This document shows positions 43,875-62,272 of a stretch of DNA of 64,000 nt, piece after piece. Numbering within the stretch: position 1 is the stretch's first letter; each line of letters starts with the position of its first letter. The notes beneath the pieces are model-generated. The model worked only from the letters and a program-made list of their open reading frames with translations. It had not been told where the DNA came from and made no database searches. The position numbers and the translations under genes were made by a program. This DNA is from Bacteroidota bacterium. GTDB lineage: Bacteria > Bacteroidota > Bacteroidia > Flavobacteriales_D > Crocinitomicaceae. The stretch is taken from assembly GCA_016192075.1 (NCBI GenBank), contig JACPUU010000013.1, positions 62,001-126,000 on the forward strand, given 5' to 3'.

Positions 43875-44252
43875 TTATAACCCATTAACCTTTCTGAAGA
43901 TATTATTGGATATAGTATCTGAATTAAAATTCACAAGAAGTCCAAGTTTTTTTCCAGATAACTTCAAATACGTTATCAGTTGTTTATGATGGACTTCTGT
44001 CAAACACTCAATTGATTTAACCTCAACAATTACTTTCTCTTCAATTAATAAATCCAGCCGATAGCCTACATCTACACGGGCATCTTCGTATACCATTGGC
44101 AACGGTACCTGGCTCCTGACATTCAGGTCCAATTTTCTGATCTCATAAATTAATGCGGCTTCGTAGGCGGACTCTAACAATCCTGGTCCAAGATTGTTGT
44201 AAACTTTAAATATACATCCCCTAACTTCAAAAGAAATCTCATTCTCGCCCAT
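43875..44252 (-). CDS. GxxExxY protein (PD-(D/E)XK nuclease-like fold)
   Basis: 125 residues from the ATG at 44252. The frame reaches 44333 but its first 27 residues are translated repeat and a TATATTTG element lies inside that part. The name motif is Gly24-LLESAY-Tyr30, and a PD-(D/E)XK-like core is visible: Asp67 in YRLDLLI and Glu77-Val-Lys79 in VIVEVKSIE, then HHKQLITYLKLSG. The family is fused or associated with nucleic acid but has no agreed function. It appears more AT-rich than nearby genes and is flanked on both sides by repeat blocks of the same unit, which suggests joint mobility; unproven. Confidence 0.88.
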   Translation of the reverse strand: MGENEISFEVRGCIFKVYNNLGPGLLESAYEAALIYEIRKLDLNVRSQVPLPMVYEDARVDVGYRLDLLIEEKVIVEVKSIECLTEVHHKQLITYLKLSGKKLGLLVNFNSDTISNNIFRKVNGL

Positions 44253-44273
44253 CCTTCTCACAATTTTCAGATT

Positions 44274-44281
44274 CAAATATA
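44274..44281 (-). promoter_or_regulatory. -7 promoter element of the GxxExxY gene
   Basis: Minus-strand TATATTTG matches TAnnTTTG, 21 bp upstream of the ATG at 44252. It falls inside the longer open frame and supports the shorter start. Confidence 0.5.
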
Positions 44282-44317
44282 GGAATTTCAGCATACCGGC
44301 AATAAAATTCAAAAAAA

Positions 44318-44700
44318 ATTTCCCGCAGATCACGCTGAAAAGAAACGCGGATTACGCCGATTAAACCTATCAAAATCTGCAGAAATCTGCAGAAATCTGC
44401 GGAAAAAAATCTGCGCACATCTGCGGGAGAAAAATTTCCCGCAGATCACGCTGAAAAAAAACGCAGATTACGCCGATTAAACCAATCAAAATCACACTCC
44501 ATCAAAATCTGCGGAAATCTGAAAAATCTGCGCACATCTGCGGGAGAAAAATTTCCCGCAGATTACGCTGAAAAAAAAACGCAGATTACGCCGATTAAAC
44601 CAATCAAAATCACACTCCATCAAAATCTGCAGAAATCTGCGAAAAAAATCTGCGGAAATCTGCGGGAGAAAAATTTCCCGCGGATCCCACATGAAAAGAA
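44318..44700 (+). repeat. Right block of about 120-bp repeats with inverted ends
   Basis: Units begin at about 44318, 44434, 44551 and 44673; three are complete (116-122 bp) and the last is truncated near 44700. They are in the same orientation as the left block and share its opening tttcccgcagat and closing atctgcgggagaaaaa. Neighbouring copies differ by a few substitutions and small indels in the atctgcgg-rich middle. Confidence 0.85.
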
Positions 44701-55518: not shown

Positions 55519-57423
55519 TTACTTGTCTTTCACTTCTTCGAAGTCAACATCTTCAGCCTCGGCATCTTTTGTGCCTGATGAAGAACCGGCATCACCCTGC
55601 GGCTGCCCATCTGCCGCACCACCTGTATTTGCATACATGTCTTGTGACGCTGCCTGAAACACGTTGTTCAGATTTTGCATAGCACTGTCAATGCGTGTAA
55701 AATCTTTTGCCTCGTGCGCTGCTTTAAGCTCAGCCAAAGCAGATTCGATTGGTGCTTTTTTATCAGCCGGAATTTTATCTCCGTATTCGCTGAGTTGTCT
55801 TTCTGTCTGGAAAATCAACGCATCTGCTGCATTCAGTTTATCAGCCTCTTCTCTGCGTTTTTTATCAACCTCAGCATTGTTTGCCGCTTCTGATTTCATG
55901 CGGTCAATCTCTTGCTGAGACAATCCGGAAGAAGCTTCAATTTTAATAGACTGTTGTTTTCCGGTAGCTTTATCTTTTGCAGAAATACTCATGATACCAT
56001 TTGCATCAATATCAAAAGTTACTTCAATCTGCGGTGTTCCCCTGCGGGCAGGTGGAATGTCAGCCAGTTGGAATCTTCCCAGTGAACGGTTATCTGATGC
56101 CATTGGGCGTTCACCTTGCAATACGTGAATGTCTACGGCTGTCTGATTATCTGCTGCGGTTGAGAATGTCTCTGATTTTTTGGTTGGTATGGTTGTGTTG
56201 GCCTCAATCAATTTGGTCATTACACCCCCCATGGTTTCAATTCCCAGTGAAAGCGGTGTTACATCCAGCAGCAACACATCTTTTACCTCACCGGTTAAAA
56301 CACCACCCTGAATAGCTGCTCCTACGGCAACAACTTCATCGGGGTTAACACCTTTTGAAGGTTCTTTACCAAAGAATTTTTTTACAGCTTCCTGAATTGC
56401 AGGAATACGGGTTGAACCACCAACCAGAATCACTTCATCAATATCTGAGGTTGAAAGTCCGGCATTTTTCAATGCTGTTCTGCAAGGTTCAATGGTTCTT
56501 TTCACCAGGTCATCAATCAACTGCTCAAACATGGCACGTGAAAGTGTACGCACAAGGTGTTTTGGCATACCATCAACCGGCATGATATAGGGCAGGTTAA
56601 TTTCAGTGGTGGTTGAAGAAGACAATTCAATTTTTGCTTTTTCGGCCGCTTCTTTCAAACGCTGAAGCGCCATGGCGTCTTTACGCAGATCCAGTCCTTC
56701 ATCTTTTTTAAACTCCTCAGCCAGCCAGTTGATGATTTTATCATCCACATCATCACCTCCCAGGTGTGTATCACCATCGGTTGCCAATACTTCAAAAACA
56801 CCATCTCCCAACTCCAGTACAGACACGTCGTGCGTTCCGCCACCAAAGTCAAAAACAATGATTTTCTGATCTTTATTCTTTTTATCCAACCCGTATGCCA
56901 ATGCGGCAGCGGTTGGTTCGTTAATGATCCGTTTTACTTTCAAACCGGCAATTTCACCAGCTTCTTTAGTTGCCTGGCGCTGTGCGTCGTTGAAGTATGC
57001 AGGAACGGTAATAACCGCTTCTGTTACTTCCTGCCCCAGGTAATCTTCAGCGGTTTTCTTCATTTTTTGAAGAATCATAGCCGAAATTTCCTGTGCGGTA
57101 TACAACCGGTCGTCAATTTTTACGCGCGGGGTATTGTTATCTCCTTTTACCACATCGTATGGTACACGGGCAATTTCTTTTGAAGCCTGATCAAAGGATG
57201 TACCCATGAAACGTTTAATTGAATAAATCGTTTTTTTAGGGTTGGTAATAGCTTGTCGTTTTGCCGGGTCGCCCACTTTTCGTTCGCCTCCATCCACAAA
57301 CGCAACGATTGAAGGTGTGGTACGTTTCCCTTCGGCATTAGTAATTACAACCGGCTCGTTACCTTCCATTACAGATACGCACGAGTTTGTAGTTCCTAAG
57401 TCGATTCCAATTATCTTACTCAT
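55519..57423 (-). CDS. dnaK: Chaperone protein DnaK (Hsp70)
   Basis: 634 residues, full length. N-terminal ATPase motif [11 protein letters not shown], phosphate-2 region [13 protein letters not shown], adenosine motif [11 protein letters not shown], linker [16 protein letters not shown], substrate domain and C-terminal tail [11 protein letters not shown]. It refolds proteins with DnaJ and GrpE, neither of which is nearby. It is monocistronic with its own terminator. Confidence 0.98.
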
Positions 57424-57730
57424 ATTAAACGTGTTTTTGCATTTTAGTAGTTAGTGAAGCTGTTTTCTTTTTTGCGCTTCGCGATAAGAATTGTCAATTG
57501 ACGTGCCATCCCGTGATTCGGGTGCCAAATGCTTCGTTTTGTCAGAAATGAGCATCAACAAGGCCTGGAAGTGTGACAGATAGTCAGAAAATCAATGTCA
57601 GTCCGTCCTGATCTGCGATTCATTGCAGACCTACTCCGTCATGCTCCCATGATACTTTCAGGGAACAAAATACGTGATCAATGGTATGGTGGGGCTCAAT
57701 TTCCGGAAACGCTGACGACCTCTGTCTAAA
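57424..57730. other. Region upstream of dnaK without a recognised gene
   Basis: About 300 bp between dnaK and the candidate minus-strand RNA. No convincing TAnnTTTG or heat-shock element was found on the minus strand in front of dnaK. No coding region is supported. Confidence 0.3.
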
Positions 57731-57895
57731 TGTAAAAAGGACATTCTTTCGAACGTCCTTTCCACAAGTTTCTGGGTTTTTTATGCAATCAATAGGTTCT
57801 GATCACAACATGGTCTGGAACTGCAAACCAGACCTACAACTTAAACTTTTGCCGGTACCCTATCAAAATACCGCCAGTCTATCCCGAAAATCGTA
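57731..57895 (-). ncRNA. Candidate structured RNA, possibly a 6S-type RNA
   Basis: A predicted minus-strand transcript of about 165 nt. It has a perfect promoter upstream (57899-57928) and ends in a strong terminator: AAAGGACGTTC-GAAA-GAATGTCCTTT (11 bp with a GAAA loop) and T residues (57731-57761). Inside, GGTCTGG/CCAGACC forms an apical hairpin (57812-57834), and UUGAUAGG near the start pairs with CCUAUUGA near the end. An outer stem AUUUUCGGG/CCCAGAAAC closes a large central bubble. A long irregular hairpin with a central bubble resembles 6S RNA (6S-Flavo type), which binds RNA polymerase. The identity is inferred; no search was made. Confidence 0.5.
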
Positions 57896-57898
57896 TAA

Positions 57899-57928
57899 CA
57901 AACATACCATTTCAAAAATACCATGCAA
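57899..57928 (-). promoter_or_regulatory. Promoter of the candidate RNA
   Basis: Minus-strand TTG, exactly 19 bp, then TATGTTTG: both elements match the Bacteroidota consensus with ideal spacing. There is no open reading frame after it other than a short accidental one. Confidence 0.7.
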
Positions 57929-57938
57929 GTGTTTTGAT

Positions 57939-57959
57939 AAAAATGAGGGGGAAACCCTC
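57939..57959 (-). terminator. Terminator after the 57970 lipoprotein gene
   Basis: Minus-strand GAGGG and CCCTC form a 5-bp stem with a 5-base loop, followed by ATTTTT. It lies just past the stop at 57970 and separates that gene from the RNA promoter. Confidence 0.5.
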
Positions 57960-57969
57960 TAAACTAATT

Positions 57970-58425
57970 TTACTCCCTTTCCAATACAATGGTCACCAAC
58001 TTGTCAGGATAGCCAAAGGTAGTATACGATTCAAAGCGGAACAGCCTGCGCTTGCTTTCTTTTACATCATACATTCCGCTGAAATTAACACATTGTGAAA
58101 AAGCCATACTTTGGGTATCAGACGTGGCCGAATCAGCATAAAAATCAAAGTCACCCCCGAGGTTGCTGAATTTCCAGTAAAAGTCTACGGTGCTTTCATT
58201 CTGATGCTCCCACGTTGCCATGCAATAGTTCTCATGATCATCACACGGGTAGATTTGCCAGTCGGGAAGTTTGGTAAATAGCGTAGTACCGGCACTGAGT
58301 TCAGTTACCGCCCAGCGGCCTTCGTCAATGAAACGTTTATAGGCCCGCTCATTTTTGTCACATGAAACGATGGTTACTAACAAAAAGGTTATTGATGCCA
58401 TCCATCCTTTAAACATCCGCTCCAT
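57970..58425 (-). CDS. Lipoprotein of unknown function
   Basis: 151 residues; the lipobox VTIVSC places the lipidated Cys at 22. Mature part with a lipocalin-like pattern: GRWAVTELSAGTTLF, DFYWKFSNLGGDFDFYADS, and KRRLFRFESYTTFGYPDKLVTIVLERE at the end; three further Cys. No family recognised. The ATG three residues in (MFKGW) could also be the start. Confidence 0.65.
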   Translation of the reverse strand: MERMFKGWMASITFLLVTIVSCDKNERAYKRFIDEGRWAVTELSAGTTLFTKLPDWQIYPCDDHENYCMATWEHQNESTVDFYWKFSNLGGDFDFYADSATSDTQSMAFSQCVNFSGMYDVKESKRRLFRFESYTTFGYPDKLVTIVLERE

Positions 58426-58517
58426 CTCCCTCTTTTTTAGTAATTTACGAAAAATGACCGGGAAAGGTTGTCTTTTTTATTGAATTTTAAGGGTTTAACG
58501 ATTAAAGGGCAGCCGTT

Positions 58518-59426
58518 TTACAGCACAAATTCGTCCCCGTCTTCAACACAGGTGGTATTTTCAAAAACAGCGCTTGCTTCAGCCTTTAATTCAGCAGTAC
58601 TGGTAAACCGGGCTGAAAAATGACCAATCAGCAGGTGCCTTACCTCAGCCTTTTTAGCAAGTGCAGCGGCTTGCGCGGCTGTAGAATGATGCGTCGCTTT
58701 GGCCCTGTCCAGCTGTTTTTCACTGAATGTAGCTTCGTGATACAAAAGATCTGCCCCTTTGATCCAGCCGGCAGCTTTTTCATAATAACGCGTATCGGTA
58801 CAAAAAGCATAACTCAGCAAATGTGCAGGCGGTAATGTGAGTTGATCGTTTGGAATAATTTTGCCGTCACGCTCCAGGTCTGATCCATTTTTTACCGCCC
58901 AGATTTCGGCCAGACTGATGGCGTATTTTTCAATCTGATCTTTATCGATATTACGTTCTTTGGGTTTCTCTTTAAATAAAAAACCATAACATTCAATACG
59001 GTGTTTCAGCGGAAAGGCAAAAATTTCCAATACCCGATCTTCAAAAATAAGGGTTTTGGTTTTGCAATGGATGGTTTGAAATTCCAGCTCAAAATCAAGC
59101 GTGACCTTTGTGAGTTCAAACTGAAAACGAATCATTTTTTCAAGTCCGTCTGGTCCAAAAATGATGAGCTTTTGTGTTCTGCCCAAAAGATTCATGGATG
59201 CAAGCAGGCCAAATATGCCCAGAAAATGATCGCCGTGTAAATGAGAAATAAAAATATACTGGAGACGCTGAAAGCGCACACCGTATTTTCGCAATTGCAG
59301 CTGCGTGCCTTCACCGCAATCTATGAGAATACGACGCTCATTAAAATTCAGATACTGTGATGTAACACCCCGCTGAAGTGTGGGAACAGCGGCCCCGGAA
59401 CCAATAATAACAAGTTTAAACGGCAA
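58518..59426 (-). CDS. rnz: Ribonuclease Z
   Basis: 302 residues, the short ELAC1-type length. The zinc-binding motif HxHxDH is His62-Leu-His64-Gly-Asp66-His67 in SHLHGDHFLG, with GSGAAVPTLQRG at the start and the later EATF and TKATHHSTAAQAA histidines. It removes 3' trailers from tRNA precursors. It is last of a minus-strand run: dnaN, lipoprotein, secreted protein, rnz, with gaps of 9-41 bp. Confidence 0.93.
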   Translation of the reverse strand: MPFKLVIIGSGAAVPTLQRGVTSQYLNFNERRILIDCGEGTQLQLRKYGVRFQRLQYIFISHLHGDHFLGIFGLLASMNLLGRTQKLIIFGPDGLEKMIRFQFELTKVTLDFELEFQTIHCKTKTLIFEDRVLEIFAFPLKHRIECYGFLFKEKPKERNIDKDQIEKYAISLAEIWAVKNGSDLERDGKIIPNDQLTLPPAHLLSYAFCTDTRYYEKAAGWIKGADLLYHEATFSEKQLDRAKATHHSTAAQAAALAKKAEVRHLLIGHFSARFTSTAELKAEASAVFENTTCVEDGDEFVL

Positions 59427-59447
59427 AATAGCGAATGATTTCGGGGA

Positions 59448-60158
59448 TTATTTTTTCTTCTTTTTCTCCTTCTTTGTCTTTCCGGAGGTAGTTGTTGTAT
59501 TTTCAGAAGAAGTGACAGAACCGGTGGCAGCGCCGGAATCTGTTGTGTCAACATGAGTACCCGAATCTACCGGCTTGATATCTGCCGGTTGACTATCTGC
59601 TTTTTTTTTATCGTCTCCCTTTACATCTTTTTTGTAAAGAATTTGGGTGTTCTCATCTTTCTTACCAATAGCGCTGTTGATCGTAGCTTCCATTACCTGG
59701 TAATTGTTGTTGAGTTTTACAATGTGTTCGTAATACACCGTAATACCATCGGTTGTTTGAATATTTGACCAGAAATGAACCAGGTAATAATCAGCCCGCT
59801 CTTTGTAATTATCTGCATCAGTCTGTGCTTTGGTGTACGCATCCGTCAGGGTTTTGTGCTCTGAATCATACGATTCCTGGGTGCCTTTAAAACGGCCGGC
59901 TGCTTTATCCTGCTCAAATTCAGTTACGCGTTCTTTGTAAGCACGGGCGCGCATAACAGCAATAAAATAACCCTCTGAATATTCAGCTCTGAAATTTTCA
60001 AACTTATAATTGGAATGTGAATAGAAAACAGAATCAGCCCACTTTACTACGGCTGCCTCCACTTTTAATTTGTCTTGTGAATCATCAATTTCATCATCTT
60101 GCGCAAAAAGTGATGGTCCAAAAAATGCAAGTGCAAAAAAGCCTAAAATGTATTTCAT
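59448..60158 (-). CDS. Secreted protein with coiled-coil and lysine-rich tail
   Basis: 236 residues with signal peptide (about 1-20, ending SLFAQ). Middle rich in charged helix (VTEFEQDKAAGRFKGTQESYDSEHKTL). The C-terminus is low-complexity: Thr/Ser-rich, ending KTKKEKKKKK. No family recognised. It lies between a lipoprotein and rnz. Probably periplasmic; function unknown. Confidence 0.6.
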   Translation of the reverse strand: MKYILGFFALAFFGPSLFAQDDEIDDSQDKLKVEAAVVKWADSVFYSHSNYKFENFRAEYSEGYFIAVMRARAYKERVTEFEQDKAAGRFKGTQESYDSEHKTLTDAYTKAQTDADNYKERADYYLVHFWSNIQTTDGITVYYEHIVKLNNNYQVMEATINSAIGKKDENTQILYKKDVKGDDKKKADSQPADIKPVDSGTHVDTTDSGAATGSVTSSENTTTTSGKTKKEKKKKK

Positions 60159-60167
60159 ACTGTTTTA

Positions 60168-61112
60168 TTAAAAAAAATCTCCATAAGGTGGATTAATGCG
60201 TGTTTTTGATTCAATTTCATAAAAAGGCGAAAAATCAAACCGCAAAACAGACGTATCGGTTATACCTCCAATTGTCTGACTAAATTTATAAAAAATATAA
60301 TAGCCGTGTATGGCGCTGGCTGTACTTTTTTCATAAAGGGGTGAAAACGCAAGGTCTTTCTGTGCCAATGCTGTATCTGTTGCTGCCACCTGCTCATCAC
60401 GCACCAGCATCTGAGCCACCTGGTTTGGATCAAAAACACCACTCACCCTCACCAGTTCGGTAATACGGATACAGGTGTAATAATACGCTGATCTTTCTGA
60501 AACATCGTTGAGTGTTTCCAGGTGATCTTTGAAAAACGTATAAAAGGCATTGCTCAGTTTACGCGCCTCTATAATGTCAGGACTAGTAAAAACAGTATAG
60601 TGGTGAAAAAAATAATTCAGCGCCTGCTCGTAATAACCGGGAATCTGAAGAATTGTAAGCGGCTCTACCGCCATTACCGCAAAGGTATCATTCAAAATAT
60701 AATTTGCCTCTACCACCTCAAGGTCACCAGAACCTGTTGTCAATGTAAAAAAATGTTCCAGGTGTGCTGTTCGTTCCAGGTGTGCCGCTTCAATGTACGC
60801 GCGCTTTGCTGCAATAATAGAATCTGTTTTTGCCCCATCGTGAAAACCCAGTTCACGGTCAGCCTCCATTTCTTCAAGGTTGATGAGTTCTTGCGGAACA
60901 TGAACCACCACATCTGTAAAACCGTAAGCGGTATATTTTTCAGTGGTTATCCGTTCGCGGATATACTCCCCAACAGCATTCTGGCAGCTAACCTGGAGTG
61001 AGGCCCTTGGTGCAGGTGGATCTTCCAGGAACAAATCATCTGCAAAATAACAACTCTGTAGCAGCACAAGGCTGCAGAGCACAAGGATTTGTTTTCTGAA
61101 TTTTGGGGTCAT
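60168..61112 (-). CDS. Lipoprotein of unknown function
   Basis: 314 residues from the ATG at 61112. The frame extends to 61148, but the signal peptide MTPKFRKQILVLCSLVLLQSC starts at the inner Met, with the lipidated Cys at 21. The mature part is largely helical with aromatic residues (YYEQALNYFFHHYTVF, SAYYYTCIRITELVR). No family recognised. 41 bp downstream of dnaN and 9 bp upstream of the secreted protein gene. Confidence 0.65.
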   Translation of the reverse strand: MTPKFRKQILVLCSLVLLQSCYFADDLFLEDPPAPRASLQVSCQNAVGEYIRERITTEKYTAYGFTDVVVHVPQELINLEEMEADRELGFHDGAKTDSIIAAKRAYIEAAHLERTAHLEHFFTLTTGSGDLEVVEANYILNDTFAVMAVEPLTILQIPGYYEQALNYFFHHYTVFTSPDIIEARKLSNAFYTFFKDHLETLNDVSERSAYYYTCIRITELVRVSGVFDPNQVAQMLVRDEQVAATDTALAQKDLAFSPLYEKSTASAIHGYYIFYKFSQTIGGITDTSVLRFDFSPFYEIESKTRINPPYGDFF

Positions 61113-61153
61113 TTGCGCAAAGGCCGCAAAAATCGTACCTGAACGCAATGGGC

Positions 61154-62272
61154 TTAGCGAATCATGACTGGCATTACCAGCATCAGGATATGCTCCTGCT
61201 CATTTTCATTACCACTCGGCAGCAGAATTCCGGCTTTGTTTGGCTCACTCATCTCAAGCACCACCTCGGTGGTATTGATGTGATTCAGCATCTCCATCAA
61301 AAACTTGGAGTTGAAACCAATTTCCATATCATCACCGCTGTAACTGCAAGTGAGACGTTCTTTTGCCTCATTTGAAAAATCAAGATCTTCAGCAGAAATA
61401 GTCAGCTCACTTCCGGCAACTTTAATTTTTACCTGGTGCGTGGTTTTATTGGAGAAAATAGATACCCGTTTAATAGAGTTCAGAAACGATACACGATCAA
61501 CCGTTAAAACATTTGGATTATCAGTTGGAATAACCGCTTCATAATTCGGGTATTTTCCATCAATCAAACGGCATGTCAGTTCAATGGTTCCAAAGTTAAA
61601 GCGGGCAGTTGATTCGTTGTATGAAATTTCAACCTCTTCAGCACCGGTCAGGTTTGATTTTAAGAGGTTCAACGGTTTTTTTGGTAAAATGAAATCTGAA
61701 TTTTTAGAAGCACTTCCGTCAGTACGGGTATAGCGTACCAGCTTGTGCGCATCGGTAGCAACAAAAATCAATTTCTCAGGGGAGAACTGGCAAAAAACAC
61801 CACTCATTACCGGGCGCAATTCATCGTTTCCGGTTGCGAAAGCCGTTTTATCAATAGCCTGTGCAATCACATCTCCCTTTAACTTTACAGAGCTGGCGCC
61901 TTTCAGTTCAGGTGATTTTGGAAAGTCAGCCGCATTTTGACCTACCAGTTTGTATTTTCCATAATCAGAAGATATTTCAATTCCAAAATTGGAGGCATCA
62001 ATTGAAAAAGCCAGGGGCTGATCAGAGAAGTTTTTAAGCGTATCCAACAATAATTTTGCGGGAATTGCAATTTTTCCATCCTCTTTGGCTTCATCGGGCT
62101 TAACACTGGTTTTCATTGTGTTTTCAAGGTCTGATGCTGAAATGGTAAGTTCACCTTTAACAAGTTCAAACAAAAAATTGTCAAGGATTGGGAGCGAATT
62201 GCTGCTGTTCAGAACTCCACTAATGCTTTGAAGGTTTTTAAGCAGGGCAGAACTGGAAATGATGAAGTTCAT
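61154..62272 (-). CDS. dnaN: DNA polymerase III beta subunit (sliding clamp)
   Basis: 372 residues, full length, three clamp domains. Typical segments: MNFIISSSALLKNLQSISGVLNSSNSLPILDNFLFE at the start, FVATDAHKLVRYT in the middle domain, and the C-terminal PSGNENEQEHILMLVMPVMI with the last residues forming the partner-binding pocket. It tethers DNA polymerase III to DNA. It is the first gene of a run that includes rnz; dnaA is not in this window. A TATATTTG element lies 34 bp upstream. Confidence 0.97.
   Translation of the reverse strand: MNFIISSSALLKNLQSISGVLNSSNSLPILDNFLFELVKGELTISASDLENTMKTSVKPDEAKEDGKIAIPAKLLLDTLKNFSDQPLAFSIDASNFGIEISSDYGKYKLVGQNAADFPKSPELKGASSVKLKGDVIAQAIDKTAFATGNDELRPVMSGVFCQFSPEKLIFVATDAHKLVRYTRTDGSASKNSDFILPKKPLNLLKSNLTGAEEVEISYNESTARFNFGTIELTCRLIDGKYPNYEAVIPTDNPNVLTVDRVSFLNSIKRVSIFSNKTTHQVKIKVAGSELTISAEDLDFSNEAKERLTCSYSGDDMEIGFNSKFLMEMLNHINTTEVVLEMSEPNKAGILLPSGNENEQEHILMLVMPVMIR

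Follow-up and report, generated by a model that had tools for sequence, protein, structure and literature searches.

The gap upstream of dnaK in the analysed DNA, a stretch of 64,000 nucleotides referred to here as the window, carries on the minus strand a compact cassette that we read, at a probability of roughly 55%, as an independent, sigma-A-driven intergenic sRNA gene, whose product probably acts by base-pairing in trans and is not a leader of dnaK. This reading builds on the signals at both ends, the predicted fold, the lack of signs of coding at the locus and a positional counterpart in another genome (G004), from which we infer transcription, exact ends, function and mechanism. An undescribed RNA gene was one of the two possibilities raised in the initial annotation of this DNA, and it is supported by the promoter, the terminator, the insulation of the cassette from its neighbours and the occurrence of the counterpart in another genus. 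The RNA is not described in the literature searched, most subscription papers lying outside that search, and no paper in it pairs Crocinitomicaceae with “small RNAs”.

The cassette lies between a lipoprotein-like gene (57970-58425, minus) and dnaK (55519-57423, minus), both named by eye. Ten nucleotides past the stop codon of the lipoprotein-like gene, a hairpin scan finds the palindrome GAGGG-TTTCC-CCCTC, then ATTTTTATC (57945-57959, minus); it is terminator-like and may represent the terminator of that gene, an upstream element of the RNA promoter, or both. The TTG box, located 41 nt from the end of the gene and on the same strand, is the -33 element of a Bacteroidota sigma-A promoter (57926-57928, minus), and 19 nt separate it from the -7 element TATGTTTG (57899-57906, minus), which follows TAnnTTTG, the sigma-A -7 consensus reported for Flavobacterium psychrophilum (PMC9723704). 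A standalone Bacteroidota sRNA should have its own sigma-A promoter (TTG / TAnnTTTG), and here the sequence match is exact, with a spacing of 19; the proposal of a TTG, 19 bp and a -7 box is borne out as TTG-N19-TATGTTTG at 57928-57899 (minus). Exact matches to TTG-N17-23-TAnnTTTG occur seven times in the 64-kb window (one on the plus strand, six on the minus strand), which corresponds to about one per 18 kb of strand. The promoter was not listed by a generic signal scan, whose promoter model is of the E. coli type.

The intrinsic terminator expected at the 3' end of such an sRNA is found as a strong hairpin at 57731-57766 (minus), with a 16-pair stem that includes G-U pairs, a GAAA loop and a U5 run within the 3' arm; the far end of the hairpin is located 168 nt past the -7 box. 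The initial annotation had described an 11-bp GAAA-loop terminator about 165 nt on, of which the place and the loop are confirmed, while the minimum free energy stem has 16 pairs and the 11 bp form its inner part. The generic scan, which applies its own U-tail rule, listed only the hairpin at 57959-57945, and the other terminator detectors applied also failed to pick up the terminator at 57766-57731 because its stem absorbs the U run.

The RNA body occupies 57767-57897 (minus), with the 5' end expected at about 57893-57897. In the preferred predicted fold of this part of about 130 nt, pair probabilities indicate a closing helix (about 57889-57883 with 57776-57769) enclosing three hairpins on the minus strand, at 57881-57842, 57834-57812 (GGUCUGG/CCAGACC) and 57807-57784; the nested helices around a large bubble that had been described earlier do not appear in it. 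The whole stretch folds with a z of -5.50 and beats 200 of 200 shuffles, with values of -7.55 for the terminator alone and -2.24 for the core without it. Since the terminator supplies most of the signal, the fold alone is modest evidence for a functional body, and the stronger argument is the presence of a terminator-like palindrome, a promoter and a terminator within one gap.

Neither strand shows coding capacity, as is expected of a standalone Bacteroidota sRNA. The absence of an ORF claimed earlier holds for the minus strand, which has no ORF of note over the cassette, and fails for the plus strand, where the ORF list contains a 93-aa frame spanning the site (57681-57962, plus) that does not look coding. 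Its codon log-odds of -0.07 per codon are below those of all 45 genes compared (minimum 0.12) and within the range of 39 spurious ORFs (mean 0.00, maximum 0.26), and it was rejected as a coding sequence. Pfam gave no match to it at E up to 1. In 31 of the 240 family genomes, its own included, a match at E up to 0.1 was obtained; the best from another genome has an E of 0.0039, and stop codons interrupt many of the matches listed. A check for an overlapping coding gene revealed none that is convincing.

A total of 90 dnaK upstream regions, including that of the window, were compared (L035-L064 and L090-L149). In nearly all of them, 130-440 nt lie between dnaK and the end of the closest long ORF listed; five have none listed. 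A detector reported strong terminators in six of the 90; by eye, those in L110, L121 and L140 lie closely behind a gene, and L113 is repeat-rich. A spacing of about 180-190 nt separates terminator and preceding gene only in G004 and G064, which both belong to genus g5; the gap is missing in the other two genomes of that genus, G025 and G077 (thus present in two of four). In G004, the gap starts with GAGGG-TTGCC-CCCTC, and the TTG of CACTTG follows 15 nt on, compared with 16 nt in the window. The pattern GAGGGTTNCCCCCTC, picked after the alignment had been seen, has a single copy each in the present genome (G000) and in G004, and a search of seven more genomes, among them G064, found no copy; both copies head a TTG box, a stretch of about 160 nt and a terminator in the region upstream of dnaK. 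By eye, the genes that precede them are unrelated, being lipoprotein-like in the window and a LuxR-type response regulator in G004. The -7 box of G004 is poor (CATCTTGG). The equivalent place in G064 shows TTG-N19-TATTTTGG, and then a terminator that ends about 140 nt on.

Local alignment of whole cassettes was equalled by 0 of 500 shuffles for the window and G004, 22 of 500 for the window and G064, and 3 of 500 for G004 and G064. The window/G004 score of 225 ranked first among 88 regions upstream of dnaK from the family (mean 127, sd 22; the next, L143, scored 196) and exceeded those of 238 other segments of G004, which reached 193 for a shifted segment at the same place and 189 elsewhere. 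For the promoter region, 0 of 1000 shuffles were as good for the window and G004, 25 for G004 and G064, and 576 for the window and G064; the last two are not alike in this region, and their whole cassettes hardly so. The bodies of the window and G004, aligned alone, scored 93 against a mean of 88, which is background, and with the RNA part only, G004 fell outside the top six of the family upstream regions. Global alignments of the RNA parts were matched by 7, 5 and 5 of 1000 shuffles for the three pairs. Between the window and G004, shuffles were as good in 256 of 1000 cases for the 5' half of the RNA, in 34 of 1000 for the 3' half and in 4 of 1000 for the terminators. Folded without their terminators, the counterparts have z values of -0.5 (G004) and -2.36 (G064), the first of which is at the level of shuffled sequences. 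In a three-sequence alignment of doubtful quality, one sequence differs on both sides of four of the nine terminator consensus pairs. A consensus fold of the window, L037 and L043, which comes from a doubtful alignment, has only two 3-bp helices outside the terminator and was not used as evidence. The cassette thus looks kept in position in G000 and G004, and possibly in G064, with a rapidly changing body, as judged from few genomes.

With a limit of E 0.001, a DNA search of the source genome returned the window copy only, and that of 58 relatives, which include no other species of genus g1, gave no credible homologue among the matches checked. The BLAST matches L003, L004 and L006 are inside long ORFs and were rejected, as was the best one, L002, which covers the terminator end only, 16 nt past a 493-aa ORF, and probably represents no more than a similar terminator. 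A covariance model for the body, built from the window sequence alone (R1), returned itself plus two matches in 120 genomes at E up to 1, and itself plus two weak matches in 240 family genomes (its own and 239 others) at E up to 0.3, both runs being made with stricter filters and with at most 27 and 13 candidates, respectively, scored in the genomes listed. Among these matches, L150 was discarded as being inside a 693-aa ORF; L080 (21.2 bits, E 0.21) is weak and mostly outside ORFs of 60 aa, and L081, from the 120-genome search, has 18.8 bits. With filters off, R1 found nothing better than E 0.38 in 13 dnaK loci, including those of G004 and G064, and nothing at the equivalent place in these two genomes. 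Plasmids and phages, as well as viral contigs searched with an exact 23-mer, gave no match. R1 turned up no convincing body homologue among the 239 other family genomes. Of the 49 high-confidence intergenic sRNAs described for Bacteroides thetaiotaomicron, 27 were reported as strain-specific (PMC7366714), so an sRNA without homologues is ordinary.

The gene order around the cassette also differs from that of several related loci. The region 57424-62272 of the window contains dnaN and a pair of tRNase Z-like and lipoprotein-like genes upstream of dnaK, on the same strand. Of 29 other dnaK loci examined with long flanks, 10 have dnaN as the divergent neighbour of dnaK, and no dnaN match was found in 60 shorter dnaK regions. 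Compared with those dnaN-divergent loci, the order in the window is rearranged, with the RNA at the junction. Two neighbouring ORFs (60168-61148 and 59448-60158, minus; 326 and 236 aa) have no Pfam match over the curated cut-off.

Such a junction could hold a decaying or spurious intergenic stretch, with a promoter-like string arising by chance and a second terminator, and with no functional RNA made. We consider this unlikely, although it deserves serious weight: besides the rearranged order, the body lacks a convincing homologue, and the core z values of the window and G004 reach only -2.24 and -0.5. Nevertheless, the hairpin at 57959-57945 makes a second terminator 180 nt later unnecessary for the lipoprotein-like gene, an exact promoter at ideal spacing stands between the two hairpins, and G004 retains the cassette head behind a different preceding gene.

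On its other side, the cassette is bounded by a sigma-54-like -24/-12 block of dnaK (TGGCACGTCAATTG, then AC; 57495-57508, minus), which is outside the RNA; the terminator-like palindrome bounds it upstream. The motif GGCA[TC]A-N3-5-TTGA (block TGGCAyA-N-ATTGA) was found in 79 of the 90 dnaK upstream regions, 43-97 nt before the ATG. The window is among the 11 regions that lack the exact block, with the variant TGGCACGTCAATTGAC from 57508-57495 on, and the loose block pattern, taken by itself, occurs in the window at least as often as expected by chance. Repeats of TGTCA / CTGACAAAATG precede the block in many of the regions printed. Block and repeats together probably form a sigma-54-type chaperone promoter with an activator site, common to the family. 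In F. psychrophilum, the SM4 (sigma-54-type) promoters are reported to include those of DnaK, GroES/EL, GrpE/DnaJ, HtpG, Lon and ClpB (PMC9723704). It is very likely that a separate promoter downstream of the cassette serves dnaK, so that the RNA would probably not be a dnaK leader. A cis-acting leader (an attenuator, riboswitch or thermosensor) that decides between early termination and read-through would explain why the element is directly upstream of dnaK on the same strand, and a closed multi-hairpin element followed by a terminator has a riboswitch-like outline. However, the terminator ends 307 nt before the ATG, the sigma-54-like block intervenes between the two, DnaK is among the reported SM4 promoters and no Rfam family matches, all of which make a leader improbable.

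It is similarly improbable that the RNA is a 3'-UTR-derived sRNA of the lipoprotein-like transcript and not an independent gene. The short distance between the end of that gene and the TTG box, on the same strand, would permit such an origin, but the terminator-like hairpin past the stop codon is followed by an exact promoter. Moreover, no such cassette follows the stop codon in any of 11 loci that contain relatives of the lipoprotein-like gene; two of these loci coincide, so that 10 separate sites in other genomes are represented. A linkage of the cassette to this gene was rejected on these grounds.

The second possibility raised initially was a 6S-Flavo-type RNA. 6S RNA forms a single rod with a large central bubble that mimics an open promoter; it binds RNA polymerase and serves as a template for pRNA. 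At gathering level, the only Rfam family found in the 64-kb window is SRP RNA, elsewhere in the window; this small SRP RNA (262-368, minus) scores 113.5 bits with RF04183, “Bacteroidales small SRP”, a strong match, though the host apparently belongs to Flavobacteriales. At E up to 10, three matches over 57400-58000 were reported, all far below their gathering scores and none from a 6S family; no family, 6S included, is at or near its gathering score at the locus. The same applies to L037 and L043, and the matches to MicX (E 0.004 and 0.045) and TB11Cs5H3 (E 0.041), which reach less than half of the gathering scores and belong to unrelated organisms, were taken as chance. At E up to 10, the 6S-Flavo model (RF01685) matched nowhere in the genome, and neither the 59 genomes of this group nor the 14 control genomes gave a match that reached its cut-off, so these searches, in which only part of the candidates was scored, had no positive control. 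Its best weak match among the 59 family and order genomes is L075 in G008, with 31.8 bits. The best single-rod fold is predicted at -25.4 kcal/mol and the junction at -36.3 kcal/mol, and this difference of 10.9 kcal/mol is unchanged when internal loops are limited to 20, 30 or 60 unpaired bases. Neither the covariance model nor the predicted shape thus places the RNA in the 6S-Flavo family, and we did not retain this identity. A strongly diverged 6S RNA is very improbable: size, own promoter and own terminator would fit, and the 6S RNA of this group is unaccounted for by RF01685, but no 6S family matches the locus, the rod is disfavoured and R1 detected no conservation of the body across the 240 family genomes. 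The candidate RNA leaves the picture of 6S RNA as it is.

If the cassette is an independent sRNA gene, RNA polymerase with the housekeeping sigma factor would start at about 57895 on the minus strand and produce an RNA of roughly 160 nt, composed of a short 5' tail, a closed three-hairpin junction and the intrinsic terminator. The terminator would halt transcription about 220 nt ahead of the sigma-54-like block of dnaK. The RNA would then most likely pair with mRNAs in trans, through its 5' tail and hairpin loops, by analogy with GibS and Rfp18. In a crude helix scan of the 45 gene starts of the 64-kb window, the best value was -14.7, compared with an average of -15.8 from 20 shuffled sRNAs, and no target stands out among them. 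A free duplex calculation, which ignores accessibility, gave its best value of -64.1 kcal/mol at 43875-44333 and was left unused as evidence.

A more far-reaching reading, which we regard as speculative and doubtful, is that two or more flavobacterial genera carry a fast-evolving sRNA gene at the edge of the sigma-54-type promoter of dnaK. Such a gene would be kept by its flanking control elements, with the GAGGG..CCCTC palindrome as an operator about 60 nt upstream of the start, and not by its body, and it would link the chaperone response with regulation by RNA or with the insulation of a promoter. If the cassette is transcribed, it represents a clean sRNA candidate in an apparent member of Crocinitomicaceae, and a gene of this kind may be recognisable from its retained flanking signals and position once its body has diverged beyond recognition.

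Among known systems, BTnc060 (RF04184) is the best permissive Rfam match at the locus and is on the same strand as the candidate RNA, but its 18.4 bits, against a gathering score of 228.9, and E of 2.2 are at chance level. 6S-Flavo (RF01685, with an Rfam model of 108 positions) is likewise described as a standalone transcript of a similar size class (PMC2864571), and differs in that the candidate does not match its model and is predicted to favour a multi-hairpin junction over a rod with a bubble. GibS of B. thetaiotaomicron, reported to act in trans by base-pairing, is closer: like the candidate as predicted here, it is an intergenic RNA in the range of about 145-170 nt with its own promoter and a 3' intrinsic terminator (PMC7366714). 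According to the same source, the 5' end of GibS is largely unstructured and the RNA is conserved within its genus, whereas more structure is predicted for the candidate, and the genomes searched yielded no convincing homologue of it. The sRNAs Rfp1-89 of F. psychrophilum are reported as independent transcripts of the same class and typical size, with a median of 176 bp (PMC9723704). One of them, Rfp18, has a stem-loop as its predicted pairing region and differs from the candidate in being conserved outside its species and in affecting metalloprotease mRNAs, as reported there. The locus probably encodes a small regulatory RNA of an ordinary type, equipped with start and stop signals of its own.
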